IMG/VR virus record: IMGVR_UViG_3300031857_016441
Span: 1-30,706 of that record
Reading direction: 5' to 3' (one strand)
From: a virus
DNA: 30,706 nt
The notes under the pieces are model-generated. The model saw only the letters and a program-made list of their open reading frames with translations, was not told the origin of the DNA and did not search any database. Made by a program: the position numbers and the translations under genes. Each line of letters starts with the position of its first letter. Within the stretch, counting starts at the first letter, position 1. Shown here in pieces: positions 1,565 to 24,033 of the stretch.

Positions 1565-2461
1565 TTAGGAATTAGGGGTATTTTTTTCAATCAATTTTAC
1601 AGCAAAGTCCCTAATAAGATTTGGTCCCAATGAATTCGCTTTATCATAAAACTCTTTTTTTCTATCAATTGGTTTTATTTTACCATTAAATGATGGAATT
1701 CTGTTTTCATAATCCTCCGTTATATACAAACCATCCAAAACATATTGCTGAATATCATATCCCAATTTTAAACCCACTTTTCCAGCTTCCATTCCATATG
1801 TATCTTCGGGACCATATCCACCAAATTCTTCAGGTATTGTAACAAATTCCCAAAATGATTTAGAATATAAGGTATGCATCCCACACCCAAATTTAATAGT
1901 AGGAATTCTTTGTGCTACCATTTTACCAACCTGCTGCGTATATGCACCATCAATCATTTTCTTATCGAGTGCATATCCATATACCGCATCTTTGTAATCC
2001 GAATGACATAAAACATCCCAACTGGCATCCCACCATTTTGCAAGAGAAGGTGAAACTATATACATACCATCTAATTGATAAGATACATCTAATTGATATC
2101 TAAGCTGCAACTCGTGAAATAGGATATCAGTATCACAAAATATAAACTGGTCATAATCTAATTTATAACTCTCTCTTTTTTGTTGAGTAGTTCCCCAGCA
2201 CGATTCATCCAGTATAATTTCATTTATGTTTTTAATACCATTAAAAAGTATAGCGAAACGGCTAACAAAGTATCCTTGCTTATATTCGCTATTTTCCCAA
2301 TCTGTTAATTTTGGATTTAAATTAAGAGTTACTTTGAATGTAATATCATCATTTTCATTTGTGTAAACCAATGCACGTCTAAATTGAAACATCAATCGTT
2401 CAACCATTTCCAATTCGGATGGCATAACGTGTATGCAAATAAGTGTTTTTTTCTTAGCCAT
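1565..2461 (-). CDS. GT-A-type glycosyltransferase-like protein
   Basis: This 298-residue protein looks like a GT-A fold glycosyltransferase. The strand FIFCDTDILF supplies a D-x-D pair (D110, D112), the usual metal and nucleotide-sugar ligands, and a later GGYGPEDTYGMEAG segment resembles the 'G-ED' acceptor-side motif of GT2/GT7-like enzymes. The N-terminal LICIHVMPSELEM replaces the more common 'vvIPtyN' strand, so it is divergent from classic GT2. No membrane segment is seen. Its start overlaps the stop of the upstream GT2 gene by one base (TAATG), suggesting coupled translation. It is the last gene of the glycan island. Donor and acceptor cannot be read from the sequence. Confidence 0.7.
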   Translation of the reverse strand: MAKKKTLICIHVMPSELEMVERLMFQFRRALVYTNENDDITFKVTLNLNPKLTDWENSEYKQGYFVSRFAILFNGIKNINEIILDESCWGTTQQKRESYKLDYDQFIFCDTDILFHELQLRYQLDVSYQLDGMYIVSPSLAKWWDASWDVLCHSDYKDAVYGYALDKKMIDGAYTQQVGKMVAQRIPTIKFGCGMHTLYSKSFWEFVTIPEEFGGYGPEDTYGMEAGKVGLKLGYDIQQYVLDGLYITEDYENRIPSFNGKIKPIDRKKEFYDKANSLGPNLIRDFAVKLIEKNTPNS

Positions 2462-3693
2462 TAAAATACGTTTTTAAAGAATGGAACTACCATGTCTTTT
2501 GTTCTTAAATTAAATATGTGTAGTTGGAATATATCCCACTCAAAGCTTCCCAATGAATCAGTTTGCTGAATTATAAATGGTATGTTTTTTATAAATGTTG
2601 TAAAATGTTCGTTGGTTATTTTAGAACCGTCAAACATAATTTGCACATCACCTTTCATTTCATCACCAATCGAATGAACTTTACTCGTAATATCAAACAT
2701 AGATTCTGTTTGCTCACTATTAACATAATCCACATACATACAATCGACATAGATATTATCACACCAAGGTTCTAAAGCTTTTAATAATTGTGGATGACAG
2801 TTATGAACCACAAATGTAGTATCGTATCGGTTTGGAACGATTGGCATCATTAACTCATCATGTAATACATCAGTATGCCACTTTCTCCACCACTCTTTAA
2901 ATTTATTTTGACGAAGTTTTGTGTATTCTTCTGAATCTTTTGGTTTGTACCACTTTGTCCCATCTGGTAAATCTATTACCCTTTCAATTTCAATACCATC
3001 TTTGAAACGGCTACCTCTACACGTCATATGATATACAAAAGCATCTCTACTTTGTATTAACTCATATTGTTGTAAATGAAATCTATTGAATATATCAGAA
3101 TCTTCTAATTCCATAGGTGCAAACAATTTATCATGTCCACCGATGCACACAAAATCTTCTTTATATAACATCCAAGGTGCAAATATACCTTGAGTTGTTT
3201 TACCTTCGGTTACATATTCGGTTTCATAAACGAACTTTTGAAATGCACGATTATCAAATGATTCCGGCTCCATTCCAAAATCCTCCACATACTTTTCAGG
3301 ACCGGGTGGATGTAATGGTGGTTCGATACGAGTAGCACTTACTACTGATAATGGTTTCAAGTGTTTTAGCATATTACCTACATAATTTTGTGTTACAATC
3401 ATATCCGAATGTAAAATACTAACAACCGGTGTTTCTGCTAATTGAATACCTTTATCATATAGAACCGTATGCCCAACTCTTTCAGGTCCTTCGTTTCTAT
3501 ATCCTTTAATATACGGATGTTTATCTTCCATCAATTGTACCCATTCCCAAGTCCCATCGGTTGAAGCATCATCTAATATTATTATATTGTGAGTATCACC
3601 ATAGCAATCTTCAATACTATTTACAGCTTGCTTTAAATATTTTACATTATTCCTACAAGGAATTATAAATGTTATACGTTGATATTTTGTCAT
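2461..3693 (-). CDS. GT2-family glycosyltransferase
   Basis: This 410-residue protein has a clear GT2 N-terminal domain: the strand ITFIIPCRNN, then IIILDDASTDGTW (37-49), and a metal-site region SILHSDMIV in which H-S-D (95-97) stands where D-x-D is usual. The acceptor-side motif ELEDSDIFNRF follows at about residues 214-224. A C-terminal extension of roughly 130 residues beyond the catalytic domain (from about 280) has no family I recognise and may bind the acceptor. The start shares one base with the stop of the upstream fusion gene, so translation is probably coupled. Family assignment is confident; the sugar transferred is unknown. Confidence 0.85.
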   Translation of the reverse strand: MTKYQRITFIIPCRNNVKYLKQAVNSIEDCYGDTHNIIILDDASTDGTWEWVQLMEDKHPYIKGYRNEGPERVGHTVLYDKGIQLAETPVVSILHSDMIVTQNYVGNMLKHLKPLSVVSATRIEPPLHPPGPEKYVEDFGMEPESFDNRAFQKFVYETEYVTEGKTTQGIFAPWMLYKEDFVCIGGHDKLFAPMELEDSDIFNRFHLQQYELIQSRDAFVYHMTCRGSRFKDGIEIERVIDLPDGTKWYKPKDSEEYTKLRQNKFKEWWRKWHTDVLHDELMMPIVPNRYDTTFVVHNCHPQLLKALEPWCDNIYVDCMYVDYVNSEQTESMFDITSKVHSIGDEMKGDVQIMFDGSKITNEHFTTFIKNIPFIIQQTDSLGSFEWDIFQLHIFNLRTKDMVVPFFKNVF

Positions 3694-5057
3694 TATTTCT
3701 TATAATTTTCTAAATAGTATTTTAAATCTTCCGGTGTTCCCAATCCCCACATCTTATCAATGTTGAATGTTTTTATTTTCTTACCATCTCCAATTGCTTC
3801 ATTGAAAGTAGGGCAAGTATAGAATTCATTATTAGTTCTGATATTCTTACTAATCATTTGTTCTGCATACTTAACATAATCAGAACCCTTTGCCCAATAA
3901 TAAACACCAACAGTTGCGATATCCGAAATTGGATTCTTCTCTGCTACTTCGGTTACATACCCATATTCATCTACTTTAGCGAATGACCATTTAGGGTGTG
4001 TTGCTGTAAATGTTAGAATGCCACCATCAACTTTTTGTTCAATCATCTTATACATAAACTCATTACTATCCCACTCTACGAATTGGTCAGAGTTTGCCAT
4101 AACTAACGGAGAATCGTTATCAATGAATTCTTTTGCTAATAAAGTTGTACACGCTGCACCTTCCGTCATACCATCCACTTCCACAATCTTACAATTAGGA
4201 GTGATTAAGTTTAGGAGAGTATCCAGGTTATACTTCTCTCTATGTTCTTTTTGTACTACATAAATAAATGTAGCATCTATGTTTAGGTTATCTACTACAA
4301 CTTGAATCATTGGTTTGCCTTCCACATCAATTAGTGGTTTTGGAAATGTATATCCAGCTTGTTGGAATCTACTTCCTGCTCCTGCCATTGGGATAAGAAC
4401 GTTCATCTTACCACCTTGCCATTTTGGTATGCTCATAGGTTTTGTTTGCTCTAATTTACGAATAATTTTTGATATTTCCAAATCATATGGATTATCAACT
4501 CTCAATACACTTGCTCTACTTCTACTTGCCGCTAATAATCCAGGTGGAGAATCTTCAACTATTAGAGTTTCCTCTGGTAGTACACCCATCATACTCATCG
4601 CCTTCCAATACATTTCAGGATGTGGTTTGCTATTTTTTACATCCTCATTAGAGAGGATTAAATCCATATACTCAATTAATCCTATCTTTGATAACATAAC
4701 CAATACAGACCTTCTAATTGAGTTTGAACAACATGCTAACTTATATCCTCTATCTCTTAATTCTTTGAAAACCGAAACCAGTACATGATTAGTTTGTAAT
4801 TGAGAAATAGCTTCTATTGTTAGATGTTGTTTTCTATACCAGATATCCTCATACAATGTAGAATTTAATCCCTTATTCTTCGTAAGTAATTCTAACTTCT
4901 GTGTTGTTTTTAATCCATCGTAAATTGAAAGATGTTCCGATTCAGTAATTACATATTTTTCATCAATTTCTTTTAGTGCCTGATTTAATGTATCATAGTG
5001 GATTTGTTTGGCCTCTACCAATACACCATCCAAATCAAATATTATTAATTTTGTCAT
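3693..5057 (-). CDS. HAD phosphatase-sugar nucleotidyltransferase fusion
   Basis: Two enzymes are joined in one 454-residue chain. Residues 1 to about 205 are a beta-phosphoglucomutase-type HAD domain: FDLDGVLVE with D8 and D10, CSNS (S111), K144 in KPHPE, and VEDSPPG (168-173). Residues about 218-454 are a nucleotidyltransferase of the glucose-1-phosphate uridylyl/thymidylyltransferase type: LIPMAGAGSRF (221-231), PKPL with K240, and MANSDQ in place of the usual metal-binding strand with aspartate. The chain could therefore process a sugar phosphate and activate it as a nucleotide sugar. This kind of pairing fits a heptose or deoxy-sugar route with the kinase at 6594-7349, but neither the sugar nor the nucleotide can be assigned. 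Confidence 0.87.
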   Translation of the reverse strand: MTKLIIFDLDGVLVEAKQIHYDTLNQALKEIDEKYVITESEHLSIYDGLKTTQKLELLTKNKGLNSTLYEDIWYRKQHLTIEAISQLQTNHVLVSVFKELRDRGYKLACCSNSIRRSVLVMLSKIGLIEYMDLILSNEDVKNSKPHPEMYWKAMSMMGVLPEETLIVEDSPPGLLAASRSRASVLRVDNPYDLEISKIIRKLEQTKPMSIPKWQGGKMNVLIPMAGAGSRFQQAGYTFPKPLIDVEGKPMIQVVVDNLNIDATFIYVVQKEHREKYNLDTLLNLITPNCKIVEVDGMTEGAACTTLLAKEFIDNDSPLVMANSDQFVEWDSNEFMYKMIEQKVDGGILTFTATHPKWSFAKVDEYGYVTEVAEKNPISDIATVGVYYWAKGSDYVKYAEQMISKNIRTNNEFYTCPTFNEAIGDGKKIKTFNIDKMWGLGTPEDLKYYLENYKK

Positions 5058-5058
5058 A

Positions 5059-6594
5059 TTATAATTTTATTTTTAAAGATTCCGATAACCCATATGTTTT
5101 CGTTATTGTATTTTCTATTGTTTCCATATTTTGCTTATGATGCAATTCTATCATATCTTTTTTAGAAAACGTTTCATATTTTTTTAAAAATAAGTTTTTA
5201 TCAAAATAATCTAGACCAATACCAACGCAAGTATAACCATGCCAACTAAAAAAACTGGTTTTAAAATAATTTAAGTTAGTAAAATCACTTGCAACCGGGC
5301 ATTCATTTTTCCATTTTTCATGCATAACTTTCAATGAAGGTTTCATTGGTGCTTGTTCCGTATAATATTTCCAAAATTCAGTGTCCTTTCGTTTTGTCAG
5401 ATAATGAAATTGTAAAAAATTTAAAATATCATCATTCATTTCGCAGAATCTATTATTGTACAATTCAACAATTTCATCGGTTGGATTATTTAAATCATAC
5501 CGATTTAATAAATCTAATTGAGTTATTGTTATCCATATTGAAGTTGCTTCCAATGGTTCGGTAAACCCGGTACTCAATCCTATACCAATACAATTATTTA
5601 CCCAAACTTTTTTGAAAGAACCCGCTTTAAAATTGATATTTTTAATTACCGATATTGGGTGTCCTAAATAATCTTCAACTTCTTTTTTTGCTTCATCTGG
5701 GTTAATGTACTTGTTATCGAAAATATACCCACACCCATGTCTAGATTGTAAAGGTGTTATCCACATCCAACCATATTTCATTGCAATTGCTCTAGTGTAT
5801 GGTTTTATATCTTTATCGGATGGTAGAAAAAATGGTATTACTGAATTTACAGTCAGATGTTCTTCATACGATTTCCATTCGGTTTTGTATAATCCACCAA
5901 GTACTAATCTTTTAAATCCTGTACAATCAAATACAAAGTCACATTTTATATTTTCTTTACTTTTTAAATGTATAATATCAATGTCACCTTTTTCATTTTG
6001 TGTGAAACTATCTACAATACCTTCTATTCGTTTAACACCTCTTTTTTCCGCCAAATTTCTAAAATATTTAGCACCCAACGATGCATCAAATTGCAAAGCA
6101 TAATAATTGGCTAATTCTAAATTATTTCCACTTTTAACAAATGGAGATTTATTATGTTTTAACAATGCATTCGATAATACACAATCATTTAGTGATAAAT
6201 TGTTTTTAATCAAATATCCGATGTATTCGTTTCCAATTGAAGTATCATACGGGGTTGTATTTGCATCATTAAAACTATAAGGAGAGCTTTTACTATTTGT
6301 AACTCCAAATGCGTGAAAATAGCTATTACCATCCCCATTCCAATTTTCAAAATTAATTCCTATCTTATAAGCTGCATTTGTTTTAGCAACAAAATCATTA
6401 AAATCAATTTTTAATTGTGCTAACGTTGATATGAATATAGGTATCGTGCTTTCACCCGCTCCCAATATACCAATTTCCGCACTCTCTACAACTTTTATAT
6501 CGGTATCTGAACCAAATAGTTTATTGGTGTACAAAGCAGTCAACCACCCTGCCGTGCCACCACCAATTATTACTATTTGTTTTATCTTGCTCAC
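5059..6594 (-). CDS. Flavin-dependent halogenase (tryptophan-halogenase family)
   Basis: This 511-residue protein, a normal length for the family, carries its diagnostic features: an FAD-binding GGGTAGW (11-17) right at the N-terminus, GAGEST (45-50), a lysine in YKIGINFENW (K77) that aligns with the catalytic lysine of PrnA/RebH, and a W-x-W segment GWMWITP (275-281) in which threonine replaces isoleucine of WxWxIP. GFTEPLEATS (343-352) gives the glutamate (E349) that aligns with the catalytic glutamate, with alanine where serine is usual. Such enzymes use FADH2, O2 and halide to halogenate electron-rich substrates. The start is GTG at 6594-6592, overlapping the upstream TAG by one base; it sits just before the FAD strand, so I accept it. 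No flavin reductase is seen nearby. Confidence 0.88.
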   Translation of the reverse strand: MSKIKQIVIIGGGTAGWLTALYTNKLFGSDTDIKVVESAEIGILGAGESTIPIFISTLAQLKIDFNDFVAKTNAAYKIGINFENWNGDGNSYFHAFGVTNSKSSPYSFNDANTTPYDTSIGNEYIGYLIKNNLSLNDCVLSNALLKHNKSPFVKSGNNLELANYYALQFDASLGAKYFRNLAEKRGVKRIEGIVDSFTQNEKGDIDIIHLKSKENIKCDFVFDCTGFKRLVLGGLYKTEWKSYEEHLTVNSVIPFFLPSDKDIKPYTRAIAMKYGWMWITPLQSRHGCGYIFDNKYINPDEAKKEVEDYLGHPISVIKNINFKAGSFKKVWVNNCIGIGLSTGFTEPLEATSIWITITQLDLLNRYDLNNPTDEIVELYNNRFCEMNDDILNFLQFHYLTKRKDTEFWKYYTEQAPMKPSLKVMHEKWKNECPVASDFTNLNYFKTSFFSWHGYTCVGIGLDYFDKNLFLKKYETFSKKDMIELHHKQNMETIENTITKTYGLSESLKIKL

Positions 6595-7349
6595 TAAAAT
6601 ACTTTTAAGTGTTTACCAACTTTGGTTACTCCTTTGTGTTGAACGGCAATTGTTGCGCATTCATTTCCATAAAGTATTGCACTTTCTATATCATTAGTTC
6701 TACAATATTGTATTGTTAATGCTGATATAAATGAATCTCCTGCACCACTATTATCCCTAACCTCAACTTCCTGTACATTGTATTCTTTATCCATATACTT
6801 ACATCCCTTTCCACTCATAGTTACAATTAACTTATCGTAGAACTCTTTGAAGTATTGCCCAGCTGCAATATTGTTTTCATACTCATGTTCATTTATCTTA
6901 ATAAATCTAGCACCTAACATTTTCTCATTCACAATCTTTTTAGTATCAATGAATACCGTATCATGCTTTGAGCAAATGTACTGAATGTCATCATACTCTA
7001 AAAATCCTTTGTTGTAATCCGATATGATAACTGCACAATAGTTTTCGAATGGAATGTGTTCTATGCCTTCAATTCTTTTTGATTTAGTAGAATCGGAATC
7101 TACTCTAATAATTTGGTGATTGGTTTTTTCCTCTACATATCTTGTTTTGGTAATAACTTCTTGATTTGTAATTAAATCAACTTCAACCCCCAATGATTCT
7201 ATGTTCTCATATACATTAGCTGCCATCCCACCTGTTTCAGTCTTTCTTTTAGGAATGAATACAGGAACAGGTGCTTCAGGACACAGCCTATTGGCTGTAC
7301 CATAAATGAATACATCTTTACAACTATCTCCTATAACTAATATTTTCAT
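6594..7349 (-). CDS. PfkB sugar kinase, heptose-7-phosphate-kinase-like
   Basis: This 251-residue kinase most resembles the kinase half of HldE/RfaE, which makes D-glycero-D-manno-heptose 1,7-bisphosphate. Specific matches are RLCPEAPVPVF (21-31), GGMAANV (40-46), SDYNKGFL (110-117), KINEHEYE (151-158) and DNSGAGDSF (199-207) with the catalytic aspartate D205. It is shorter than a typical HldE kinase domain (about 310-330), with less sequence between residues 60 and 100, and lacks the C-terminal cytidylyltransferase. A nucleotidyltransferase lies two genes downstream, in the HAD fusion. Assignment to PfkB is firm; heptose 7-phosphate as substrate is inferred from the motifs. Confidence 0.85.
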   Translation of the reverse strand: MKILVIGDSCKDVFIYGTANRLCPEAPVPVFIPKRKTETGGMAANVYENIESLGVEVDLITNQEVITKTRYVEEKTNHQIIRVDSDSTKSKRIEGIEHIPFENYCAVIISDYNKGFLEYDDIQYICSKHDTVFIDTKKIVNEKMLGARFIKINEHEYENNIAAGQYFKEFYDKLIVTMSGKGCKYMDKEYNVQEVEVRDNSGAGDSFISALTIQYCRTNDIESAILYGNECATIAVQHKGVTKVGKHLKVF

Positions 7350-7361
7350 AACTTTTTTATT

Positions 7362-7766
7362 TTACCAGCTTATTTCCCAATCTTTAAAATCGGCTGCTAA
7401 GCAATCAATTTTGTAATCTTTTCTACCACCCATAACTTCTTGAATCTTATTTTTAGCTACGTTACGGATGCCATTCAATCCATGTGTTAATTCTAAATTG
7501 TTACCATCTTTAATTCCCTTACGATAGTTTGATTCATTGTGCCAAATATGCAAGTTCATTTGTGATAATACTACAATTGCTCTGATTGTTTCTGCGGTGA
7601 TTGGTTCTTTGCTTTCATTCAAATATAATTGAATATCATGCACAATTGCTTTAATTTCTTCTCCGTATTCTGCTTTGTGTTCGGCTATAAATACTTCTTT
7701 CAATTGTACGATAGATAATCTATCTACTAATTCACTCAATGTTGGTAAATACTTTCTTTCTTCCAT
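7362..7766 (-). CDS. Small helical protein, possibly DUF4254-like
   Basis: This 134-residue protein appears fully helical. The pattern LSELVDRLSIVQLKEVF near the start, then NLHIWHNESNYRKG and HGLNGIRNVAKNKIQE, recalls the DUF4254 family, small helical proteins often found beside lipopolysaccharide genes in Bacteroidota. I make that link from remembered sequence patterns only. No catalytic motif is evident. It lies 2 bases after the SDR gene and 12 bases before the kinase gene, so it is expressed with sugar-activation enzymes and may be an accessory or binding protein for that pathway. Confidence 0.55.
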   Translation of the reverse strand: MEERKYLPTLSELVDRLSIVQLKEVFIAEHKAEYGEEIKAIVHDIQLYLNESKEPITAETIRAIVVLSQMNLHIWHNESNYRKGIKDGNNLELTHGLNGIRNVAKNKIQEVMGGRKDYKIDCLAADFKDWEISW

Positions 7767-7768
7767 AA

Positions 7769-8707
7769 TTAAAGGTTTGTAAAATTTTGATTGTTTTTGT
7801 TTACTACGAATTTATATGCACTCATCAATTGTTTGATTCCGTAATCTAAATCATAAATTGGTTTCCATCCTTTGCTTTCTAATTTCTCATTAGATACGAT
7901 ATAATTTCTTTTATCAAAATCTTCTTTGAAATCATCTTGCTTAATCACCAATGATGGAATATGTGATTTAATTTTTTCTGCTAATTCTAATTTACTCAAG
8001 TTAGCGGTTGATAACCCTACATTAAATGCCTGTCCTTTACATGCTTCATAATTTTCAATTATAAATTGGAATGTACGAGCTATATCCTGAACGTGGATGT
8101 AGTTTCTTTTAAAGTGTGCTTCAAACAATACTAAATACCCATCAACTACACTCTTATAAACAAAATCATTTACTAATAAATCAGTTCTCATACGAGGTGA
8201 TACACCAAATACAGTTGCTAATCTTAATGATACACCATTACCATTTGCTAACATAGTGTTCTCTGCATCACATTTAGTTTTAGCGTAAAGTGATAATGGA
8301 TTGAATGGAGATTCTTCTGTAATAATTGAATCGGATGAACCATATTGTGAGTTAGTATTAGGTAAGATTAACTTTTGGTCATCTCTTAATACTTCAACAA
8401 CATCCGCTACTTGCTGATAGTTTACTGCTATCGTTAATTCTGGATTAGCTTTACACGCAGGCATACCCACAATTGCTGCTAATGGAATAATAACATCATG
8501 CTCACTTACTAATTTTTGCAATAACTCTTTATTTCTAACATCCCCTAGTTCAAATTTGAATCCCTCTCTTTTGAATAGATGTAAAAGCGATAATTGGTCA
8601 TACATTAAGTTGTCCAATACCGTAACTTCGTAGCCGTTATTTAATAACTGCTCTGTCAATGTAGAACCTAAATATCCCGCTCCACCTGTGATTAAAACTT
8701 TATTCAT
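7769..8707 (-). CDS. Extended SDR nucleotide-sugar epimerase/dehydratase
   Basis: This 312-residue protein is an NAD(P)-dependent extended short-chain dehydrogenase/reductase. It has the Rossmann motif TGGAGYLG (7-14), the NAD ribose-contact region VLDNL, and the catalytic pair Y141/K145 in LYAKTK. NTNSQYG at 117-123 supplies the Thr/Ser of the catalytic triad. Enzymes of this type oxidise a nucleotide sugar at C4 and then epimerise, dehydrate or decarboxylate it. The segment LRLATVFGVSPRMRTDLLVNDF matches the substrate-binding side of this family. The exact reaction cannot be read from the sequence; a C4 epimerase is the default guess. Confidence 0.83.
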   Translation of the reverse strand: MNKVLITGGAGYLGSTLTEQLLNNGYEVTVLDNLMYDQLSLLHLFKREGFKFELGDVRNKELLQKLVSEHDVIIPLAAIVGMPACKANPELTIAVNYQQVADVVEVLRDDQKLILPNTNSQYGSSDSIITEESPFNPLSLYAKTKCDAENTMLANGNGVSLRLATVFGVSPRMRTDLLVNDFVYKSVVDGYLVLFEAHFKRNYIHVQDIARTFQFIIENYEACKGQAFNVGLSTANLSKLELAEKIKSHIPSLVIKQDDFKEDFDKRNYIVSNEKLESKGWKPIYDLDYGIKQLMSAYKFVVNKNNQNFTNL

Positions 8708-8710
8708 ATT

Positions 8711-9349
8711 TTATTTATTTTTTTGTAACATTATGTGAAATGATTGAGAACCGCCTCTTACCCAATATTGGAACGGATACTCTTTAACAACTAAATTCGT
8801 ATTTTTTAAAACTTCTGGAAATATCGTTGTTAGCCATTCTTCTTTTGTATTTACGGTTTGATGCAAAGGTCCATCTGGATGCATTGCAATTGATGCCAAA
8901 AAGATTCCATCGGTTTTAAGAGAATTGTTTATGTTTTCAAACAATAAACTCAAATCAGAATATTTGATATGTTCAACAACTTCCCATGCGGTAATAACAT
9001 CAAATAAAATAGGCGTTACTTCTTCATCATTAAAAATTTTAAAAGGTTTTGTGATATCGCATGTAAAAAGAATTTTATTACCATACTCTGGCCAATTTGC
9101 TCTATTATTTACCAAACTATAATCACTTCCTTCTAATCCAATACTAACATTACCTTTATTGTGCAAATCAACAACCAACTGTCCACCCGAACAACCTAAA
9201 TCTAAAAAATTTATTTTTTCATTTTTAAAATGAGCTGTAAGTTCATCTAAAAAGTTGATATCGGTTGAATTGTCATGTGCAGTTCCGTGTGGATAAAGGT
9301 GGTCCGGTGAATCGGATGCAATTGGGTATTGTGTTTCTATTTTTATCAT
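8711..9349 (-). CDS. Class I SAM-dependent methyltransferase
   Basis: This 212-residue protein has the class I methyltransferase fold. The SAM-binding loop is INFLDLGCSGGQ (46-57), followed by an acidic strand end in GLEGSDYS and a later DVITAWEVVEHI, the post-II/III region common to small-molecule methyltransferases such as UbiE/COQ5 relatives. The substrate is probably small: its position among nucleotide-sugar enzymes suggests a sugar or glycan hydroxyl or carboxyl. It is only 21 bases from the next gene downstream and 3 bases after the stop of... its upstream neighbour's coding block in the same direction, so it is part of the island transcript. A second, distinct methyltransferase lies at 12058-12720. 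Confidence 0.82.
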   Translation of the reverse strand: MIKIETQYPIASDSPDHLYPHGTAHDNSTDINFLDELTAHFKNEKINFLDLGCSGGQLVVDLHNKGNVSIGLEGSDYSLVNNRANWPEYGNKILFTCDITKPFKIFNDEEVTPILFDVITAWEVVEHIKYSDLSLLFENINNSLKTDGIFLASIAMHPDGPLHQTVNTKEEWLTTIFPEVLKNTNLVVKEYPFQYWVRGGSQSFHIMLQKNK

Positions 9350-9370
9350 AATATTTGTTTTTTATTTTTT

Positions 9371-12050: not shown

Positions 12051-12057
12051 TTTCTTA

Positions 12058-12720: not shown

Positions 12721-12721
12721 C

Positions 12722-16087: not shown

Positions 16088-16088
16088 A

Positions 16089-16706: not shown

Positions 16707-17470
16707 ATTTTTTGAATGTCAGCTCCACCTCTATATCCCCAAAATGCCTCTAAATAACCTCTATGAGTTGGCATGTTCATCATTGGTGTAAGACACGTTC
16801 CAATATCAATATAAGAATTATTGGGAAAATCTCTAAATAGTTCATACACTGCCAAGTTGGTGAATGTAGAAGCTGAAAATAAGAACACGTGATTTGTGAT
16901 ATTATTTTCTTTAATCCATTGTCTAATAATGTCAATTTTATCATAATCGTTTACAAATGCGTTATATCCCACTCTAAAATCTTTTTTAATGAATGGTAGT
17001 TTTGATGTATCTGCACTTTCATGTCCAACAAACACACAATCTTTACTATACAAAATTGGAAGTGTGTGCATAATGAATAGTGGATAGTTACCATTAACCC
17101 AAAGATTTGCCCAACTCAAACTCTCATCATCACCACCATGCAAATCCAATTGAAACTTAAATGCTTCATCACCTACACAACATTTACAACTAATACCTTT
17201 ATAATAATTTGGTTGTCTATGTTTGTATGCTTCAATTAATCGATTGTATGATTCACCATGTTGTTTTGGGTCATAGTGTTTAAAATCAGCCGGTTGATAA
17301 ATACCACCTTGCTTTTGGTCTCCAATTTGAATTACACCTTTGTCCAAAACCAATTCTTTATTTTGAAGAATATACAACTCACCGTCAGAATATCTTGCAA
17401 AACCAAAATGAATATCATTTCTAATCATTTCAGTAAATTTTCCAAAATGTTCTCTAAAATTTTTCTGCAT
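16694..17470 (-). CDS. GT-D-type glycosyltransferase-like protein (DUF1792-like)
   Basis: This 258-residue protein resembles GT-D fold glycosyltransferases. The key sign is FARYSDGE (24-31), matching the family's 'iRfGDGE' segment in which the D-x-E pair (D29, E31) binds metal and donor. A second sign is the C-terminal SYIDIGTCL, like the 'aiDiG' strand of DUF1792 proteins. In between, HVFLFSASTFTNLAVYELF resembles the 'lisaGp-ak.l...l' strand and helix. It lacks membrane segments. It starts 17 bases inside the end of the epimerase gene. The transferred sugar is unknown; the DUF1792 prototype moves glucose in adhesin glycosylation, which makes a protein acceptor worth considering. Confidence 0.68.
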   Translation of the reverse strand: MQKNFREHFGKFTEMIRNDIHFGFARYSDGELYILQNKELVLDKGVIQIGDQKQGGIYQPADFKHYDPKQHGESYNRLIEAYKHRQPNYYKGISCKCCVGDEAFKFQLDLHGGDDESLSWANLWVNGNYPLFIMHTLPILYSKDCVFVGHESADTSKLPFIKKDFRVGYNAFVNDYDKIDIIRQWIKENNITNHVFLFSASTFTNLAVYELFRDFPNNSYIDIGTCLTPMMNMPTHRGYLEAFWGYRGGADIQKICIW

Positions 17471-18464
17471 CTAATATCTTTTTAATCTTCTCCGCTGCCC
17501 TACCATCACCATACGGACAATTTATACAAATATACGAATTCTTTTCCAACTCACCAAATAATTCTCTTAATTTTTTTGGGTCTTCGCACATATGTAAGTG
17601 ACCGGTTTGGATACCTTCTGGTCTTTCAGTTGTTTTTCTACATACAATAACTTTCTTATTAAAGAAAGAACCTTCTTCTTGTAACCCACCACTATCCGTT
17701 ATAACCAATTTACAATCTCTTAAAATGTTAATCGTTTCATCATGCGATAGTGGTTCTACAACATCCACATTATGTAGTAAATGCTTCCATTTTTGAACGT
17801 TTGGATTCGGGTGGATAGGTAATATGAATTTTAAATTTGGATACAATATTGCCAACGCATTTATCTCTCTGAACCATTCATCTAACCAATGATGATTTTC
17901 TCTACGATGCATTGTTACTAAAATAGTATCACCATAATCACCCTTCTCATATTTCATAAGGTTATCCAATACGGTATTTCCAACTATATGAATATCTCCT
18001 TTTACTCTTTCTGCTTTTAAGTTATCAGCTGATAGTTGTGTTGGTGCAAAGTTTACATCTGCTAAACGGGCTATCATCTGCCTATAACCTTCTTCTGGAT
18101 ATGGATTTTCCAAATCATAACTTCTCAACCCAGCTTCCATATAATAGATTCGGATTCCTCTATGATATGCTGCTAATGCACATCCGAAAGCAGATGCGGT
18201 ATCACCCTGAACTAATACTCCACTAAATTTATATGGTGGAAATTCTGATAAACAAGATGCTATAACATTATCCAATCGTCCACATCTAAGCAATTGAGCA
18301 ATTGGTATTTTAAAATTTACTGAAATATCATTCAATAAATCTTCATGCTGACCTGTAAATAACAATCGGTATTCCTTCTCATCCATTGTATCGATAAGAG
18401 GTTTTACTTTCAACCATTCAGGTCTAGTTCCAAAACATATTAATAATGGTAGTTTATTTTTCAT
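17454..18464 (-). CDS. wecB: UDP-N-acetylglucosamine 2-epimerase (non-hydrolysing)
   Basis: This 336-residue protein matches WecB, which interconverts UDP-GlcNAc and UDP-ManNAc. Motifs in order: FGTRPEWLKV (11-20), VQGDTASAF, YMEAGLRS followed by NPYPEEGYRQ, FAPT, the phosphate-binding VTMHRREN, ITDSGGLQEEGSFF, TTERPEG, and PYGDGRAAEKI near the end. All expected active-site residues (D in QGDT, E in MEAG, E in PEE, H in HRREN) are visible. It is slightly shorter than typical enzymes (about 370), mainly near the N-terminus. ManNAc could serve one of the island's transferases. The gene overlaps both neighbours by 11-17 bases. Confidence 0.92.
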   Translation of the reverse strand: MKNKLPLLICFGTRPEWLKVKPLIDTMDEKEYRLLFTGQHEDLLNDISVNFKIPIAQLLRCGRLDNVIASCLSEFPPYKFSGVLVQGDTASAFGCALAAYHRGIRIYYMEAGLRSYDLENPYPEEGYRQMIARLADVNFAPTQLSADNLKAERVKGDIHIVGNTVLDNLMKYEKGDYGDTILVTMHRRENHHWLDEWFREINALAILYPNLKFILPIHPNPNVQKWKHLLHNVDVVEPLSHDETINILRDCKLVITDSGGLQEEGSFFNKKVIVCRKTTERPEGIQTGHLHMCEDPKKLRELFGELEKNSYICINCPYGDGRAAEKIKKILDAEKF

Positions 18465-19224
18465 TTACTAATTTCCAGCCTTTTTGTCTTTGTTCATTAA
18501 AATACTGATTCATCAATTGTTTAAACGGTGTACCATCTATACTTTTTTGATTTGATTCCCAAAGTGAATTAGCATCCCCACCATAAGTTCCACCTTTTAA
18601 ACTTCCCCACATTTCCATATCAGAACGAGGATGTGGTGGTACATATGTTTTTATTCCGGCATACTTTTGTAACATATATGAAAAGTGCATATCTTCACCA
18701 CAGGTATTGTATTTAGGGTCTGGTAATTCTCTTACCATAATAGGTAACCACTCCTTCTTAAAGAACCAACTATGCCCCACTAAATCTACTTCTACAGTCC
18801 TATCATTGTTACCTTGCTCCGGCCATCCGAAACGTAAGTAGTGTTCGTAGTAAGATGAATGTTGCGGTGGTAGTGGATTTAAGTAAAGTAATCCTACCGT
18901 TCCCAATAAACCTTCCTTCTCATTCATTGTGTTCATACAATTTTCTAACCACTTCTTACCAGGAATTGTATCATCATCAAATACACATACATAAGGATTC
19001 TTAGCGTTCATAGCAAAGTAAAATCTTGCCCAAACTCCGAAGTTGTAATTACAATAGGCAACGGGAACTTCCGTACCAATATCGTAATTAATCAAATCAT
19101 TATCACCAGGATTATTGTACCATACCAATATCTCGTCAGGTGGTAATGTTTGGTTTTTGAGAGCCTGTATTTGTTCATTTAGATTCTCTCCTCTTTTGTA
19201 ACCATTTAATATAACTGTTATCAT
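18454..19224 (-). CDS. GT2-like glycosyltransferase
   Basis: This GT2-like protein starts with MITVILNGYKRGENL, the usual first strand, and carries YVCVFDDDTIPGKKW with the D-x-D metal site (about residues 83-85) and a later CGEDMHFSYML acceptor-side motif. I set the start at 19224, giving 256 residues, rather than the longer frame from 19269. The ATG at 19224 overlaps the upstream TGA as ATGA and places the conserved strand at the N-terminus, whereas the 15 extra residues would lie inside the neighbouring gene and match nothing. The overall pattern is close to enzymes that extend lipopolysaccharide or protein glycans. Donor unknown. Confidence 0.82.
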   Translation of the reverse strand: MITVILNGYKRGENLNEQIQALKNQTLPPDEILVWYNNPGDNDLINYDIGTEVPVAYCNYNFGVWARFYFAMNAKNPYVCVFDDDTIPGKKWLENCMNTMNEKEGLLGTVGLLYLNPLPPQHSSYYEHYLRFGWPEQGNNDRTVEVDLVGHSWFFKKEWLPIMVRELPDPKYNTCGEDMHFSYMLQKYAGIKTYVPPHPRSDMEMWGSLKGGTYGGDANSLWESNQKSIDGTPFKQLMNQYFNEQRQKGWKLVNEK

Positions 19225-20204
19225 AATTCTGCCATTATTCGTTTTATCCAAAGTTCTTTTGAAAAACAAGCTTCATAATTATTTTTTGCTATTTCTGAAC
19301 ATTGATTATAAAACTCTTTATCATCTCTTAATTGTATTGCTAATTCTCTTGCGGTTTCCAAATCACCAACGGCTACCGATAACGATGGATGGCAAAGTAA
19401 TTGTGTATCCACATCAGCATTACCGATACACGGAATACCAAAATATGCACAATTCAAAGCAAATGTTCCAGCTGCTACCGTTGGCATCATATGAACCGCA
19501 TATTTGAATGTTGATAATACAGCCATCCATTCATTCCACATCATTCTTGGTAAGTGATTTAGGTTATCCATACTAGCTTCGCCAACTCTCATAGCGTGTG
19601 ATGTTTGAGCCCAAATAGGTACTTCAAAATTTCCAGCTATCATATAACTTTCAAACCCACCATACCATCTTGCAAAGTTACCACCTATAATTGCTTTATC
19701 TTCTTTTGTAGGTTGGATATCTTTGATTAGAGTATCAATCATCAATGTACCAATAGGTCTGATTTTCTTATTAGGAAATAATCCTTTGTAATAATATACA
19801 TCGGAATCGTTATGTGTAAAGATTGAATCACAAGATTGTAAAAAGTTATAGAAATAAATTTGGTCTGCTATCTCATAATCATTATACCACCAATGAGGTC
19901 CTTCTTGTACATAGTGAACATTGATATTACCCTGTTGTTTTATTTTACCAACAATATCTTCTCTAAGCAATTGTGAAACTGGATTAACTCCATTTACTAA
20001 TGTACTTCCTTCCGAACTTAAAAATGTTTTACCTTTTGGGAATATAACAAACACATGCTCATATCCTTTTAACTCATCAAGCATATGAATATTAAAATGG
20101 TCAGCATCTAATGCATACATCCAAGCAAACTCCGTTCTCATATTTGGATGATTTGCTGGAACTTTACCCATAAATCCCATTTCAGTTAAGAATGCTATTC
20201 TCAT
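19221..20204 (-). CDS. GT-B-like glycosyltransferase
   Basis: This 327-residue protein looks like a two-domain GT-B glycosyltransferase. Its first strand, MRIAFLTEMGFMGKVP, and the 'SCDSIFTHNDSD' segment, where an inter-domain strand names an asparagine/aspartate-rich loop, fit the N-terminal domain. The C-terminal domain has IRPIGTLMIDTL, then MMPTVAAGTFALNCAYFGIPCIGN, equivalent to the donor-binding 'E..G.p.lEa.a.G.Pvi' helix-strand although the first glutamate is replaced. No classic EX7E is seen, so it may be inactive or use another donor contact. It overlaps the upstream gene as ATGA and the downstream one the same way. Confidence 0.66.
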   Translation of the reverse strand: MRIAFLTEMGFMGKVPANHPNMRTEFAWMYALDADHFNIHMLDELKGYEHVFVIFPKGKTFLSSEGSTLVNGVNPVSQLLREDIVGKIKQQGNINVHYVQEGPHWWYNDYEIADQIYFYNFLQSCDSIFTHNDSDVYYYKGLFPNKKIRPIGTLMIDTLIKDIQPTKEDKAIIGGNFARWYGGFESYMIAGNFEVPIWAQTSHAMRVGEASMDNLNHLPRMMWNEWMAVLSTFKYAVHMMPTVAAGTFALNCAYFGIPCIGNADVDTQLLCHPSLSVAVGDLETARELAIQLRDDKEFYNQCSEIAKNNYEACFSKELWIKRIMAEL

Positions 20205-20830
20205 ATTGTATCGTATAATTCATTTTGCTTTTCTTGCCTTTCAATTTGCTTATGATGATATAAACAAAATTGTTCTTCTTGCGGCAAAACCGAAAGTGTA
20301 TTATATCCAACAATTCTTTCATGCACTTTACCTTGCCATTCTATTTCGGATGTTCGTCTATATAGACGTGTTTGGTAATCAGGAAAATTTATCCATTCTT
20401 TCTCATTAACTTTCCATCCCCATTTTTGAATATGTTTTTGTGTTAATCCGGTAACCGTATTTATTCTCGGTACAAAGAAAAGGTCAACATCCTTATTGTA
20501 ATCCAATAGTTCATGTATATTTTCAATCAAATATTCCGATGGCATTTCATCTGCATCAATTTGGAAAATAAAAATACCATTTGCATGATTTTTCAAATTA
20601 TTTTTATACGATGCAAAGTCTTTGTTTAAAGGAAACGCAATTATTCGTATATTGGAATGAAGTTGTTTTATAATATTCAAATAATCTTTTACTTGCGATG
20701 TAACGGAATCCGAATCATATTGGATTAGTATCTCATCATCAGCATGTACTCTTGGGTGTAAAAAATTAATTAAGTTTGTAATTTCATTTAACTCATTACA
20801 AACGGTAACGGCATATGTAACATTTATCAT
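20201..20830 (-). CDS. GT2-family glycosyltransferase, short
   Basis: This 209-residue GT2 protein begins with VTYAVTVCNELNEI, then a strand DEILIQYDSDS and FIFQIDADEMPSEYL, whose D92-A-D94-E95 gives the D-x-D metal site. YQTRLYRRTSEIEWQGKVHERI matches the conserved 'R.frr...i.w.g.vHE' of Waa-type beta-1,4-glucosyltransferases (WaaE/KdtX), enzymes of the lipopolysaccharide inner core. It is shorter than those enzymes (about 250-260), ending soon after LYHHKQIERQEKQ. The lipopolysaccharide-core similarity suggests a heptose or Kdo acceptor, in line with the heptose-kinase-like gene in the island, but this is inference. Confidence 0.83.
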   Translation of the reverse strand: MINVTYAVTVCNELNEITNLINFLHPRVHADDEILIQYDSDSVTSQVKDYLNIIKQLHSNIRIIAFPLNKDFASYKNNLKNHANGIFIFQIDADEMPSEYLIENIHELLDYNKDVDLFFVPRINTVTGLTQKHIQKWGWKVNEKEWINFPDYQTRLYRRTSEIEWQGKVHERIVGYNTLSVLPQEEQFCLYHHKQIERQEKQNELYDTI

Positions 20831-20838
20831 AAAAAATA

Positions 20839-21351
20839 TTATTCTTCGGGTTTATCTTCTTCTTTTGTTTCCTTTTTATTTAAAAGTTTTTTTAAATATT
20901 CATTATCTAATTTCATTAAACTGATTCGTTTAACACCGGATAAAAGATATGTTCTATATGAACCCGGTGCCATCTTATATAAAGAATCATTTTTAACTGC
21001 ACTAAATGTTCTAGTTCCAATTCTGTTATCTCTCTGTAAAAGGGTATCTATTTTAGATTCCATAAGAGCGTTATCGATATCGGAAGCTTTTGTTGTTCTT
21101 TTAAAATTCTTTTTTAACCATTGAAAAAATTTTTCCGGTCTAACTTGTGTAATTTTTATACACAATAATTTTTTATCAGGTGTTATACCTAATAAAAAAA
21201 CTATTGAAGTTTTTGTACCGCTTAAAGTTTTTACTTTCCCATCGGCATATTCATATGTAACTATTTTATAAATGTTTCTTGGAATTAATTGATTCTTCGC
21301 AACATTTGTTTCTTGTATAAAAAATTTACTATATGATTGTCCGTACGGCAT
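20839..21351 (-). CDS. Unknown 170-aa basic protein
   Basis: I do not recognise this protein. It is lysine-rich with a likely beta-rich first half (PRNIYKIVTYEYADGKVKTLSGTKTSIVFLLGITPDKKLLCIKI) and a helical, highly charged end (KKLLNKKETKEEDKPEE). There is no signal peptide, membrane segment or obvious catalytic motif. Its composition is more like a virion or nucleic-acid-associated protein than an enzyme, yet it lies between two glycosyltransferase genes, 8 bases from one and sharing one base with the other (TAATG). It may be a structural gene around which the island grew, or the target of the transferases; both are guesses. Confidence 0.6.
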   Translation of the reverse strand: MPYGQSYSKFFIQETNVAKNQLIPRNIYKIVTYEYADGKVKTLSGTKTSIVFLLGITPDKKLLCIKITQVRPEKFFQWLKKNFKRTTKASDIDNALMESKIDTLLQRDNRIGTRTFSAVKNDSLYKMAPGSYRTYLLSGVKRISLMKLDNEYLKKLLNKKETKEEDKPEE

Positions 21352-22640
21352 TATACTTTGTTAAGTTTTGGTATTTGAATTTTTGCTTTATTTAGTTGTG
21401 GTACGTTAAATGGTACTACCTTTGGCGAAGCCTTTACATTTGATTCCAAAATCTGAATAAATCGCTCATTCATTTTTTCTAATGTAAAGTTATTCAATGT
21501 GTTTTCTTTCAAACCTACTGATTTTGATAAATACTTATCATAATTCTTATAAACATCATATATTTTATTTGCCGCAACACTATAATTAACAGTAAACCAT
21601 TGTGCCTCTTTAAGAATAAATTGGTCTGCTGCTGATTCATCTACTGGTGTTAATGAACCTTCTAATAAGTCAGCGTATTCGCCTGGTAAGAAATCCAATT
21701 GCCCACTCCAACCACTAGCTATAATTGGTTTACCTGTCAAAGTAAATTCGGCCATAGGTCTACCATATCCTTCTCCTTTAGCAAATGAAATCATTGCTTT
21801 AATTTTTGGATTATGATATAAGTTACTTACATCAATTTCTTCCATATCACCATGTATCAAATATACAGATGGACATTTATCACCAAATGATTTCAATACT
21901 TCATCTATTTTTTTACGAGTTTCTTCTCTATCAATTACACTAAATCCAGCGTGAGATGTTTTAACAACTAATGCGGGTCTTTTATCTTTTGGTAGGTATT
22001 GGAATACAGTTGCAAATGTTTTAATTGCCATACCAATATCTTTTCTATCTTGTCCCAATGAACCTTTCAACCAATGTCCTACAATTAAGAAACAAAAATC
22101 TTCTTTCACATTTTCCAATACATTATTACCAGTTCCTTTAGAAAATATTTCAGTATCAACCCCTTCAAAAAGAACTTCAATTGGAGTTGTTGTTCGTATT
22201 TCACCAACAATCTGTCCACTAGCTTGGTCTTTTTGCTGATATACAGTTCCACCTAAATTATTTTTTGTAAAATTCGATGGTACGATGATTAGATTCATTT
22301 TGTTAGAACCATCAATAAAATCTTTTGGAGCAATTGTGGTTTCTACACCAGCAGTTACACCAATGTTATAATGTCCTTTTGGCTCAAATTCGTTTGCTAC
22401 TGAAACTTGCATAAACACATCCGGTTTTTGTTCAATACCGGTGATAACTCTCTCTAACATCCATCTACCAAATTCAGATTCGCCATCTACTTGATTTTGT
22501 GGAGTGTTACCCCAACGAAGTGGAATAATTTTAATGTCATATTTGTCCATCTTGCGTAGGGATTTCATTAAATCTCTACAATGGTCTCCATAACCACTAC
22601 GAGTGAATATAGGTCCTTGAAATACTAATGTTGGTTTCAT
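21351..22640 (-). CDS. GT4-family glycosyltransferase
   Basis: This 429-residue GT-B protein belongs to the GT4 superfamily. Its N-terminal domain starts PTLVFQGPIFTRSGYGDHC, the glycine-rich acceptor loop, and its C-terminal domain has FLIVGHWLKGSL, then SFAKGEGYGRPMAEFTLTGKPIIAS, in which E290-GYGRPMA-E298 is the E-x7-E donor-binding motif, and FLPGEYADLLEG, the region following it. VPSNFTKNNL and LFEGVDTEIF are the usual inter-domain landmarks. Its sister gene at 22651-24033 has the same architecture. Retaining transfer from a nucleotide sugar is expected; the sugar is unknown. Confidence 0.87.
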   Translation of the reverse strand: MKPTLVFQGPIFTRSGYGDHCRDLMKSLRKMDKYDIKIIPLRWGNTPQNQVDGESEFGRWMLERVITGIEQKPDVFMQVSVANEFEPKGHYNIGVTAGVETTIAPKDFIDGSNKMNLIIVPSNFTKNNLGGTVYQQKDQASGQIVGEIRTTTPIEVLFEGVDTEIFSKGTGNNVLENVKEDFCFLIVGHWLKGSLGQDRKDIGMAIKTFATVFQYLPKDKRPALVVKTSHAGFSVIDREETRKKIDEVLKSFGDKCPSVYLIHGDMEEIDVSNLYHNPKIKAMISFAKGEGYGRPMAEFTLTGKPIIASGWSGQLDFLPGEYADLLEGSLTPVDESAADQFILKEAQWFTVNYSVAANKIYDVYKNYDKYLSKSVGLKENTLNNFTLEKMNERFIQILESNVKASPKVVPFNVPQLNKAKIQIPKLNKV

Positions 22641-22650
22641 TCTTTATAAC

Positions 22651-24033
22651 TTATTTAATTTTAAATACCTCAAATCTTTGGCGAGGTTTCCAATTTTCAA
22701 ATGTAGATTCAATTCCATCTACTAAAGTTTGGCACATATTCGTATGATTCAAACCGGCTTCATTTATGAAAAATTCTCTACCAATCAATCCATTTGCTTT
22801 ACGAACTTCTTTTGGTGTGTTATACACTTTCTCAATTGCTTCTGCAACTTCCGTAATATCAACTCTATCATCCCAAATATAAGGTGTTGGTACTGAACCT
22901 GCCAATGATTGTGCTCTACTCCAAACAGGAGTTACCCAAGGACCAGGTTCCGCTTTACCTTCCCACTCTCTCCATTGGTGTAATGAACCAATCTTAATAT
23001 AATCGTCTGCGGTCAATACTTTACCATTCACTTTAAATCCACATTGGTCTTGCAATCCACCAGTTACGTTTACAATGATTGGAGTTCCAGCCATTACTGA
23101 TTCTGCAGTTGCTAATCCAAATCCTTCGTTATTAGCTATGTTGATTGTTGCATCTGCTATATTATAAAGAAAATTTAATTCTTGTTGTGGTCTTCTTTTT
23201 TCAGAGAAGATAATGTTACAATTAGGTGCTACTGCATCAATTACAGCTGGCAAATCCGTACCATTCTCATCCACAGGTTGTGTATGCATTACTAATACAC
23301 ATTTATCCGCTTTCTCTTTACCAATTTTATCACAAAACTTTTGAAATGCTACAATAACATCTGCAGGTTGTTTTCTTCTGATGTTACGATTACTCCAATA
23401 TAATACGAATTCATAATCTTTACCACCTAAAATTTCTTTACGATAATCATCAGGCACTTCGGTTGGTTTGTACATATCGGTATTGATACCATGTGGTACA
23501 TAACTTACTTGCCAATCCTTTTTAGGTTTCCAAGTTGGTTTAGTATCTAATGCTGATAATCTTTTAATAATACCATATGTTTGACGTGAGATACAACCAA
23601 TCCAATCACAACTTTCATAGTAGTTACGATTGTATAATGGGTCTGGTAAATCATCCCAAATTGCGTAAAATAAAATTGGAACATTTTGTCTAATTTCATG
23701 TTCGATATCATATAACCATGTCCAATAACGAGGGTCAGTAAAGTGTAAGATAGCATCTGGTTTTTCGGAATTAATTAGTTGTCTAATCAAATCTGCATTA
23801 CCATATCCATTCCAAGGAAGTATCTTTAGAGAAGCGTCAGGTATACCATAATTGGTTTGTATATCCTCACTAACATCTAAAACTCTACCCTGTTCTGGGT
23901 GGTTAATTGCCGCTCCAACTTGAAACCAATCGTACTTATGTATAGTACCTAAAACCAATTCTTTTGAAACGGTGGCTATACCACTCGCCATTCTTAAATC
24001 ATCTGAAAGTAACAGTATTTTTTTCTTTGCCAT
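22651..24033 (-). CDS. GT4-family glycosyltransferase (first gene of the island)
   Basis: This 460-residue GT4-like protein begins ILLLSDDLRMASGIATVSKEL with the acceptor-binding glycine loop, has SYVPHGINTDMYKP at the domain boundary, an FVLYWSNRNIRRKQP donor-phosphate region with the expected arginine/lysine, and NEGFGLATAESVMAGTPIIV with the E-x7-E motif (E303, E311). NVTGGLQDQCGF follows as expected. The long segment from about 355 to 400, KAEPGPWVTPVWSRAQSLAGS, is an insertion relative to typical GT4 enzymes. It is the first transferase transcribed in the island, 9 bases after the ribbon-helix-helix gene's stop. Confidence 0.87.
   Translation of the reverse strand: MAKKKILLLSDDLRMASGIATVSKELVLGTIHKYDWFQVGAAINHPEQGRVLDVSEDIQTNYGIPDASLKILPWNGYGNADLIRQLINSEKPDAILHFTDPRYWTWLYDIEHEIRQNVPILFYAIWDDLPDPLYNRNYYESCDWIGCISRQTYGIIKRLSALDTKPTWKPKKDWQVSYVPHGINTDMYKPTEVPDDYRKEILGGKDYEFVLYWSNRNIRRKQPADVIVAFQKFCDKIGKEKADKCVLVMHTQPVDENGTDLPAVIDAVAPNCNIIFSEKRRPQQELNFLYNIADATINIANNEGFGLATAESVMAGTPIIVNVTGGLQDQCGFKVNGKVLTADDYIKIGSLHQWREWEGKAEPGPWVTPVWSRAQSLAGSVPTPYIWDDRVDITEVAEAIEKVYNTPKEVRKANGLIGREFFINEAGLNHTNMCQTLVDGIESTFENWKPRQRFEVFKIK

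Follow-up and report, generated by a model that had tools for sequence, protein, structure and literature searches.

The window analyzed here is the complete IMG/VR record IMGVR_UViG_3300031857_016441, a linear fragment of 30,706 bp from a large, freshwater-type bacteriophage, and it carries an island of 25 genes for glycan synthesis and tailoring, numbered i01 to i25 in the direction of transcription (Table 1). All clear genes of the window are on the minus strand, and the contig ends inside a fiber gene. Upstream of the island, in order of transcription, are genes for a family-B DNA polymerase (pol), one further protein, a dUTPase, a 2-oxoglutarate (2OG)-Fe(II) oxygenase, the clamp-loader protein gp44, a Zn protein, gp62, a PD-(D/E)XK nuclease (PDDEXK), and a 66-amino acid (aa) protein (u66), and i25 is followed by two small proteins, a HAD protein, and ribosomal protein bS21. 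Profile scans place the island within a T4-type replication neighborhood, between the replication genes and the bS21 gene, in keeping with the T4-like setting proposed in a first-pass annotation of this DNA. The 25 genes are consecutive on one strand, as that annotation had also described, and run from 24033 down to 1565 with a largest gap of 21 nt. Of the 24 joints, 10 are gaps of 1 to 21 nt and 14 are overlaps, namely, six TAATG-type joints of 1 nt, three ATGA-type joints of 4 nt, and five longer ones; the start of i06 in its homologues is the ATG at 19224, as opposed to the TTG at 19269 in the listed open reading frame (ORF). There is no contrast in GC content between the island and its flanks, and a megablast search of the island against phage records gave no match.

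Enzyme content of the island

The first-pass annotation counted about eleven glycosyltransferases (GTs), eight nucleotide-sugar genes, and four tailoring enzymes. The latter two counts hold, with i07, i10, i13, i15, i16, i19, i21, and i23 assigned to nucleotide sugars and the GNAT protein i09, the methyltransferases i14 and i18, and the halogenase i22 to tailoring, but eleven glycosyltransferases are reached only as a maximum. Seven (i01, i02, i04, i06, i11, i12, and i24) are firmly supported by profiles, i08 is a probable eighth by way of a homologue, and i05, i17, and i25 bring the number to at most 11. PDB profile searches gave no significant match for i03, i05, i08, or i25. The predicted structure of i08 was discarded because the model is too poor (predicted local distance difference test [pLDDT] score of 38), and that of i03 weakly resembles the T4 DNA-end protector gp2 (BFVD matches 3, 8, and 36; E, 0.02 to 0.8), which is a lead only. 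The aminotransferase i10 is without ~90 internal profile positions; it has the same length in two related phages (G005 and G025) and nearly so in Flavobacterium phage immuto.

The nucleotide sugars made would include a WecB-type N-acetylmannosamine donor (i07), an amino-deoxy sugar (via i10, of the DegT type), and fucose-like and heptose-like sugars from the set of SDR, kinase, and HAD-nucleotidyltransferase (HAD-NTP) proteins. Together, i21 and i23 resemble a heptose-type set of kinase, phosphatase, and nucleotidyltransferase, with i21 falling under the family cutoff (132 bits on TIGR02198, below the equivalog threshold). No GmhA-type SIS isomerase was found in relatives G001, G034, G040, and G041, and the host would therefore need to provide the precursor if the sugar is a heptose.

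None of the 25 proteins has a predicted membrane helix, by Kyte-Doolittle analysis only, and the 317 island proteins of the relatives give four marginal helix calls, three of them for the same HAD-NTP protein at threshold, compared with ~9% genome-wide. Among the 25 there is no initiating glycosyl-1-phosphate transferase, flippase, polymerase, ligase, lipid-carrier enzyme, or Gtr-type protein. Because all 25 proteins are soluble, the glycan is best explained as a chain built on a soluble acceptor, probably in the cytoplasm of the infected cell, where soluble enzymes would both make and attach its sugars.

TABLE 1 Coordinates of the island genes, the island boundaries, and the fiber start in the window
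Feature	Coordinates	Strand	Evidence
PD-(D/E)XK nuclease, conserved upstream island boundary	24317..25189	-	PF12705 2.3e-19; 21/21 relatives and phage immuto
i01, GT4 glycosyltransferase, first frame gene	22651..24033	-	PF00534 3.7e-9; 21/21 pol-selected relatives
i02, GT-B-like glycosyltransferase, frame gene	21351..22640	-	phrog_2170 7.9e-17; 20/21 relatives
i03, small frame protein, neither glycosyltransferase, nucleotide-sugar, nor tailoring gene	20839..21351	-	Model pLDDT 77
i04, GT2 glycosyltransferase, frame gene	20201..20830	-	PF00535 1.7e-8; 8/9 near, 10/12 far relatives
i05, possible GT-B glycosyltransferase	19221..20204	-	Profile vs PDB GT group 1, E 0.07, subthreshold
i06, GT2 glycosyltransferase	18454..19224	-	PF00535 1.5e-8
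i07, nonhydrolyzing UDP-GlcNAc 2-epimerase (WecB type)	17454..18464	-	TIGR00236 226 bits, NCBIfam cutoff 210
i08, probable GT-D-fold glycosyltransferase	16694..17470	-	Only via homologue L172_08 (PF08759/PF22882)
i09, GNAT acetyltransferase	16089..16706	-	PF00583 1e-5
i10, compact 210-aa DegT-type sugar aminotransferase	15455..16087	-	PF01041 1.3e-21
i11, GT11 (alpha-1,2-fucosyltransferase family), allele marker	14598..15455	-	PF01531 9.4e-27; 68-87% in 11 other viral contigs
i12, GT-B-like glycosyltransferase	13663..14604	-	PF13524 3e-6
i13, SDR nucleotide-sugar enzyme	12722..13672	-	PF01370 1.3e-38; 86% in G038
i14, methyltransferase	12058..12720	-	PF13489; homologue absent among compared relatives
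i15, SDR, GDP-L-fucose-synthase-like	11103..12050	-	NF047922 288 bits, under its cutoff of 500
i16, SDR nucleotide-sugar enzyme, allele marker	10129..11103	-	PF01370 6.2e-45; 79-93% in allele relatives
i17, possible glycosyltransferase	9371..10132	-	Between i16 and i19 with i18
i18, methyltransferase	8711..9349	-	PF13489 9.9e-10; among compared relatives only a 35% match, G038
i19, SDR nucleotide-sugar enzyme, allele marker	7769..8707	-	PF01370 4e-34; 89-91% in allele relatives
i20, 134-aa protein, allele marker, neither glycosyltransferase, nucleotide-sugar, nor tailoring gene	7362..7766	-	90-96% in all allele relatives
i21, HldE-type PfkB sugar kinase, allele marker	6594..7349	-	PF00294 1.7e-18; PEAPVPV and GAGD motifs
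i22, flavin-dependent halogenase, window-specific insertion between i21 and i23	5059..6594	-	PF04820 1.8e-100
i23, HAD phosphatase and nucleotidyltransferase fusion, frame gene in most relatives	3693..5057	-	PF13419 8.8e-30, PF00483 2.4e-11
i24, GT2 glycosyltransferase	2461..3693	-	PF00535 1.7e-15
i25, probable GT-A-like enzyme, last frame gene	1565..2461	-	DxD invariant across 13 phage homologues; no profile match
bS21 ribosomal protein, downstream boundary	132..353	-	PF01165 3.4e-12
Start of collagen-like tail-fiber gene (MALITRISNG...), cut by contig end	1..29	-	Sequence

Fixed frame and exchangeable middle

A polymerase scan of viral contigs gave 414 related stretches, and the DNA downstream of pol was taken from 21 of these (9 near and 12 far relatives). 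As far as the contigs reach, their order is PDDEXK-u66-i01-i02-i03-i04-variable-(i23)-i25-u103-HAD (HAD177), and across 27 phage relatives the locus has the same position, with i01 to i04 as a conserved frame, i23 to i25 as further frame genes in most of them, and a middle that is replaceable. In the 21 pol-selected relatives, i01 is universal, i02 is missing only where a contig ends inside it, i04 is present in 18, i25 is detected in 15, and i23 is detected in 11 (6 near and 5 far); i23 is also missing from G040 and G041. The isolated Flavobacterium phage vB_FspM_immuto (NC_055915, gp178-gp183 onward) has the same boundary and order, with the PD-(D/E)XK nuclease, a small protein, i01 (gp181; 48% identity), i02 (gp180), a small gene, and i04, and then a shorter sugar cluster with an aminotransferase, a methyltransferase, an epimerase, and an i24-type GT2. 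It differs in its ~11-kb island, its family-A DNA polymerase, and its lack of the GT11/kinase/HAD-NTP allele, a halogenase, and a collagen match, and the gene at the place of i03 is not homologous, gp179 having been ruled out as an i03 homologue by alignment. Microcystis phage Mel-JY01 (PP395634), labeled a cyanophage, has replication genes with 27 to 49% identity and homologues of i01 (51% identity), i02, and i04 downstream of PDDEXK, but its run is short, with ~eight genes. The expected recurrence of the gene order in phages is thus borne out, since all relatives examined have the locus at one and the same position, and with the frame carried by the 21 relatives, immuto, and Mel-JY01, the objection that no phage relatives keep the block falls away.

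The ratio of nonsynonymous to synonymous substitution rates (dN/dS) of island genes relative to their counterparts in related phages is 0.04 to 0.26 in most comparisons, reaching 0.46 for i24, and that of gp44 and pol is 0.01 to 0.08; the island is therefore maintained by selection. Bacterial surface-polysaccharide loci commonly contain most of its enzyme families, which would suit a recently captured host operon or random metabolic cargo with no dedicated function in the phage, but a profile scan for i07 in 84,980 bacterial and archaeal genomes gave 39 loci, none of which has the island order. The best i07 match there (55%) is on a 16-kb phage-like contig, with the others at 32 to 51%, and with many phages repeating the same order and dN/dS values that are mostly low, such an origin is scarcely credible. 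The fixed place in relatives, the purifying selection, and the lack of a host operon copy agree with the earlier proposal of a phage-specific, selected system for a complex glycan. That best-match contig, L172 (NZTP01000040.1), although binned as Altibacter, is phage-like, with its own glycosyltransferase cluster, homologues of i06 and i08, and an ORF that looks like a UvsX-type recombinase; because it looks like phage DNA, the Altibacter genome bin may be contaminated.

The nearest relatives of the window by pol (95 to 97% identity) and gp44 (98 to 99%), G001, G004, G008, and G019, carry a different middle. Genes i09 to i22 are absent from all four, apart from a 27% match to i17 in G008, i08 is matched at only 24%, and other sugar genes stand in the place of the window's middle. 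In contrast, about ten other phage contigs, recovered in scans with i11 and i21, share the order i05-i10, i11, (i12, i13), i15, i16, i19, i20, i21, (i23), i24, i25, and their middles are mostly 60 to 98% identical in aa sequence to that of the window; the markers i11, i15, i16, i19, i20, and i21, which are absent from the four nearest relatives, recur in order in these allele carriers. In a tree of gp44, gp62, and PDDEXK, the window groups with G019 and G001, apart from the main group of allele carriers, strongly supported branches force at least two allele changes, and a single origin of the allele is found in 0 of 200 bootstrap trees. Counting against this, the test of the allele carriers as one clade is borderline (approximately unbiased test, P = 0.052), and the claim of exchange therefore rests on the forced changes and on the contrast in identities. 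From these comparisons the locus is a fixed, multi-allelic one at which whole alleles are swapped, the number of exchanges being uncertain, and this holds whatever the acceptor of the glycan. A frame of glycosyltransferases and the phosphatase/nucleotidyltransferase fusion would then surround a middle whose genes determine the sugars that are synthesized and attached. Several allele carriers (G034 and G036 to G041) have a polymerase that is only 57 to 59% identical, while their genomes are 62 to 79% identical to G001 (medians), and pol itself therefore seems to have been replaced.

Window-specific genes are also present. None of the allele relatives has the halogenase gene i22, and i21 directly abuts i23 in contig L221, which marks the precise point of the i22 insertion in the window; i16 and i19 abut in the same contig where the window has i17 and i18. 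For i14, i17, and i18, too, the allele relatives have either no counterpart or a poor match. Tryptophan halogenases of the PDB match the i22 product at E values down to 1.1e-71, and its catalytic Lys and EPLE Glu align with theirs; by its PrnA/RebH-type features (FAD GxGxxG, Lys, and EPLE-region Glu, with WxWxIP reading WMWITP, a small change), it is predicted to be a genuine flavin-dependent halogenase. Its nearest phage homologues (39 to 46% identity) are among tail-fiber or structural genes, with 2OG oxygenases nearby. In one phage contig (L086:9998-18048), three genes of the halogenase family are found together with a 2OG oxygenase amid tail-fiber genes, a neighborhood that suggests that phage halogenases act on virion components. 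A conserved link between halogenase and glycan was rejected because the allele relatives lack i22 and its homologues are in other contexts, and synteny with P-SSM2, where a halogenase is also ~26 kb past pol, was set aside as the intervening genes differ.

Other islands and the flank of this one hold further enzymes. The glycan island of G001 and G004 codes for a 396-aa RuBisCO large-chain-like protein (L091:18352-19542 in G004; PF00016, 115 bits) between a HAD gene and WecB, and a lineage-2 island codes for a fusion of phosphoribulokinase/uridine-kinase and class II aldolase domains (L112:12854-14293 in G021; also in G017 and G027). The 2OG-Fe(II) oxygenase of the window (26938-27570), between dUTPase and gp44, has a homologue in none of the 21 relatives.

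Candidate acceptors of the glycan

A collagen-like fiber is coded in or beside the island in all 15 of the closer, lineage-1 relatives whose DNA spans the place (14 by an N-terminal motif, plus the G008 homologue that the motif misses). In most it is between i03 and i04, where the window has no fiber gene, and in G034 it is directly after bS21; a fiber start after bS21 in the window was predicted from G034 and then found in the last 29 bases. This start scores 21.4 bits on a matrix of the fiber N terminus, compared with 6.8 for the best nonfiber among 1301 ORF starts. The fibers match Pfam Collagen (2.5e-41) and the PHROG tail fiber and collagen-like minor tail protein, and their repeats comprise 49 to 147 Gly-X-Y triplets with Ser/Thr at 62 to 80% of X/Y positions and Pro at 0 to 2%. 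In Riftia, a Pro-poor collagen is stabilized by glycosylated threonine (PMC11766948).

The solubility of all the enzymes and the collagen-like fiber next to the island favor the virion over the host surface as the site of the glycan. The likeliest acceptor would be a Ser/Thr-rich virion protein of the phage itself, foremost the collagen-like fiber with its Gly-Ser/Thr repeats; the glycan chain would stiffen and mask the fiber, and allele exchange would alter the antigen-like surface of the phage or its attachment. We regard it as an even call that this is a phage-owned multi-allelic locus whose soluble enzymes O-glycosylate the collagen-like tail fiber in the cytoplasm. More tentatively, the locus may be a counterpart of a serotype locus, with alleles swapped between lineages, proline-free collagen-like fibers O-glycosylated, and halogenation as a further option.

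Several points weigh against the fiber as acceptor. Lineage-2 relatives and immuto keep the frame with no collagen match over the Pfam cutoff, so another acceptor must exist there and the collagen fiber is ruled out as a universal one; since immuto has the frame without collagen, we only infer that the fiber is the acceptor. Ser/Thr-rich fibers are present in lineage 2, and immuto was not searched for them. The adjacency may simply reflect a variable region shared by fiber and glycan genes, and soluble glycosyltransferases might also extend lipid-linked sugars of the host.

The collagen-free frames of lineage 2 and immuto would fit a reading in which the fiber adjacency is incidental and other virion proteins are decorated, be they of the capsid, of the baseplate, or further Ser/Thr-rich proteins of the tail, as would the location of halogenase homologues among tail-fiber and structural genes and the glycosylated capsids and tail tubes of mycobacteriophages (Freeman 2023, as cited in PMC12619734). 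However, the fiber stays beside the island even when it switches sides (G034 and the window versus the others), and we consider this reading rather improbable.

Remodeling of the host surface is the strongest rival of the fiber reading, although still fairly unlikely. In the cytoplasm, the glycosyltransferases would extend or retailor a lipid-linked O-antigen of the host or another of its surface glycans, and the host flippase and ligase would then be used, to block superinfection or release progeny; similar islands in pelagimyophages are interpreted by their authors as changing the host surface (PMC7029224). Like bacterial O-antigen and capsule loci, the window's locus combines a conserved frame with a swappable middle, and its WecB, DegT, SDR, and GT2/GT4/GT11 enzymes include types typical of surface polysaccharides, but unlike those loci, it has no initiating transferase, flippase, polymerase, or exporter and is in a lytic-type phage genome. 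The near absence of membrane proteins here and in the relatives' islands argues against host remodeling, and a 22-kb investment would be costly so shortly before host death, within about the final hour, if the phage is lytic.

The adjoining replication genes raise the question of DNA glycosylation, in which the enzymes would hypermodify phage DNA bases against restriction, and phages do glycosylate DNA using several glycosyltransferases (Pyle 2024, as cited in PMC12619734). However, no member of the thymidylate-synthase/dCMP-hydroxymethylase family was found in the island-bearing relatives G015 (202 kb) and G024 (209 kb), the family member in G001 has the Asn of a true thymidylate synthase, and the 7-deazaguanine DNA modification set of immuto is separate from its island, making DNA a highly unlikely target.

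Two other kinds of genes are near the fibers. A subtilisin-like protease (PF00082) is directly 3' of the fiber in part of lineage 1 (L091:12665-14230; homologues in G001, G002, G008, G013, and G019) and is a possible fiber-processing enzyme. The other kind, near tail-fiber genes in G019 (L110:6174-7550) and G037 (38498-40873), codes for mucin-like proteins in which Thr forms long runs (TTTTTTAAP repeats), and these are additional candidates for O-glycosylation.

Related phage systems and likely host

The locus is a larger variant of known phage glycan clusters, at a different place. The host recognition cluster of pelagimyophages and cyanomyophages is similarly a large variable island with many glycosyltransferases near tail-fiber genes, including collagen repeats and rfaE, but its position is in the structural region, with VrlC on one side and gp14 on the other, whereas the window island is between gp62/PDDEXK and bS21; a change in the host O chain is proposed for it, and ordered recurring alleles are not described, at least in the parts of that paper drawn on here (PMC7029224). 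Mycobacteriophages share the use of phage glycosyltransferases on virion proteins, shown there and proposed here, but with few glycosyltransferases as compared to the ~eight and whole sugar pathway set of the window (Freeman 2023, as cited in PMC12619734). Moraphages, predicted Bacteroidota phages, have four core glycosyltransferase groups and, in many members, core DnaK/heat-shock genes as well as PolB (PMC12619734). The window codes for a PolB; HSP70 was not found in G001, G015, G023, G024, G034, G040, and G041.

In open-license papers, we found no description of a fixed-frame, exchangeable-allele organization with an adjacent proline-free collagen fiber, nothing on glycosylated collagen-like phage fibers, and nothing useful on immuto or Mel-JY01. 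Phage glycosyltransferases are common and their targets mostly unknown, and the frame, alleles, and adjacent Ser/Thr-repeat collagen fiber offer a concrete candidate acceptor. If the fiber reading is correct, phages would diversify a virion glycan coat as bacteria do O-antigens, with a bearing on phage attachment and on the stabilization of Pro-free collagens, and an isolated phage-host pair with the same frame exists in Flavobacterium phage immuto and strain LMO8.

The first-pass annotation had pointed to cyanophages for similar but smaller clusters, but the closest kin known for the frame are phages of Bacteroidota. Among annotated phages, homologues of i01 are limited to those of Flavobacterium and Rhodothermus, together with Mel-JY01 and one uncultured phage. 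Of 35 window genes, one has a Shine-Dalgarno (SD)-like motif upstream (2.9%, versus 7.3% in random windows), and the leaders are A-rich; rare SD motifs and A-rich leaders are typical of Bacteroidota, and the host is likely a member of this phylum. The large relatives code for 20-odd tRNAs and a tmRNA.

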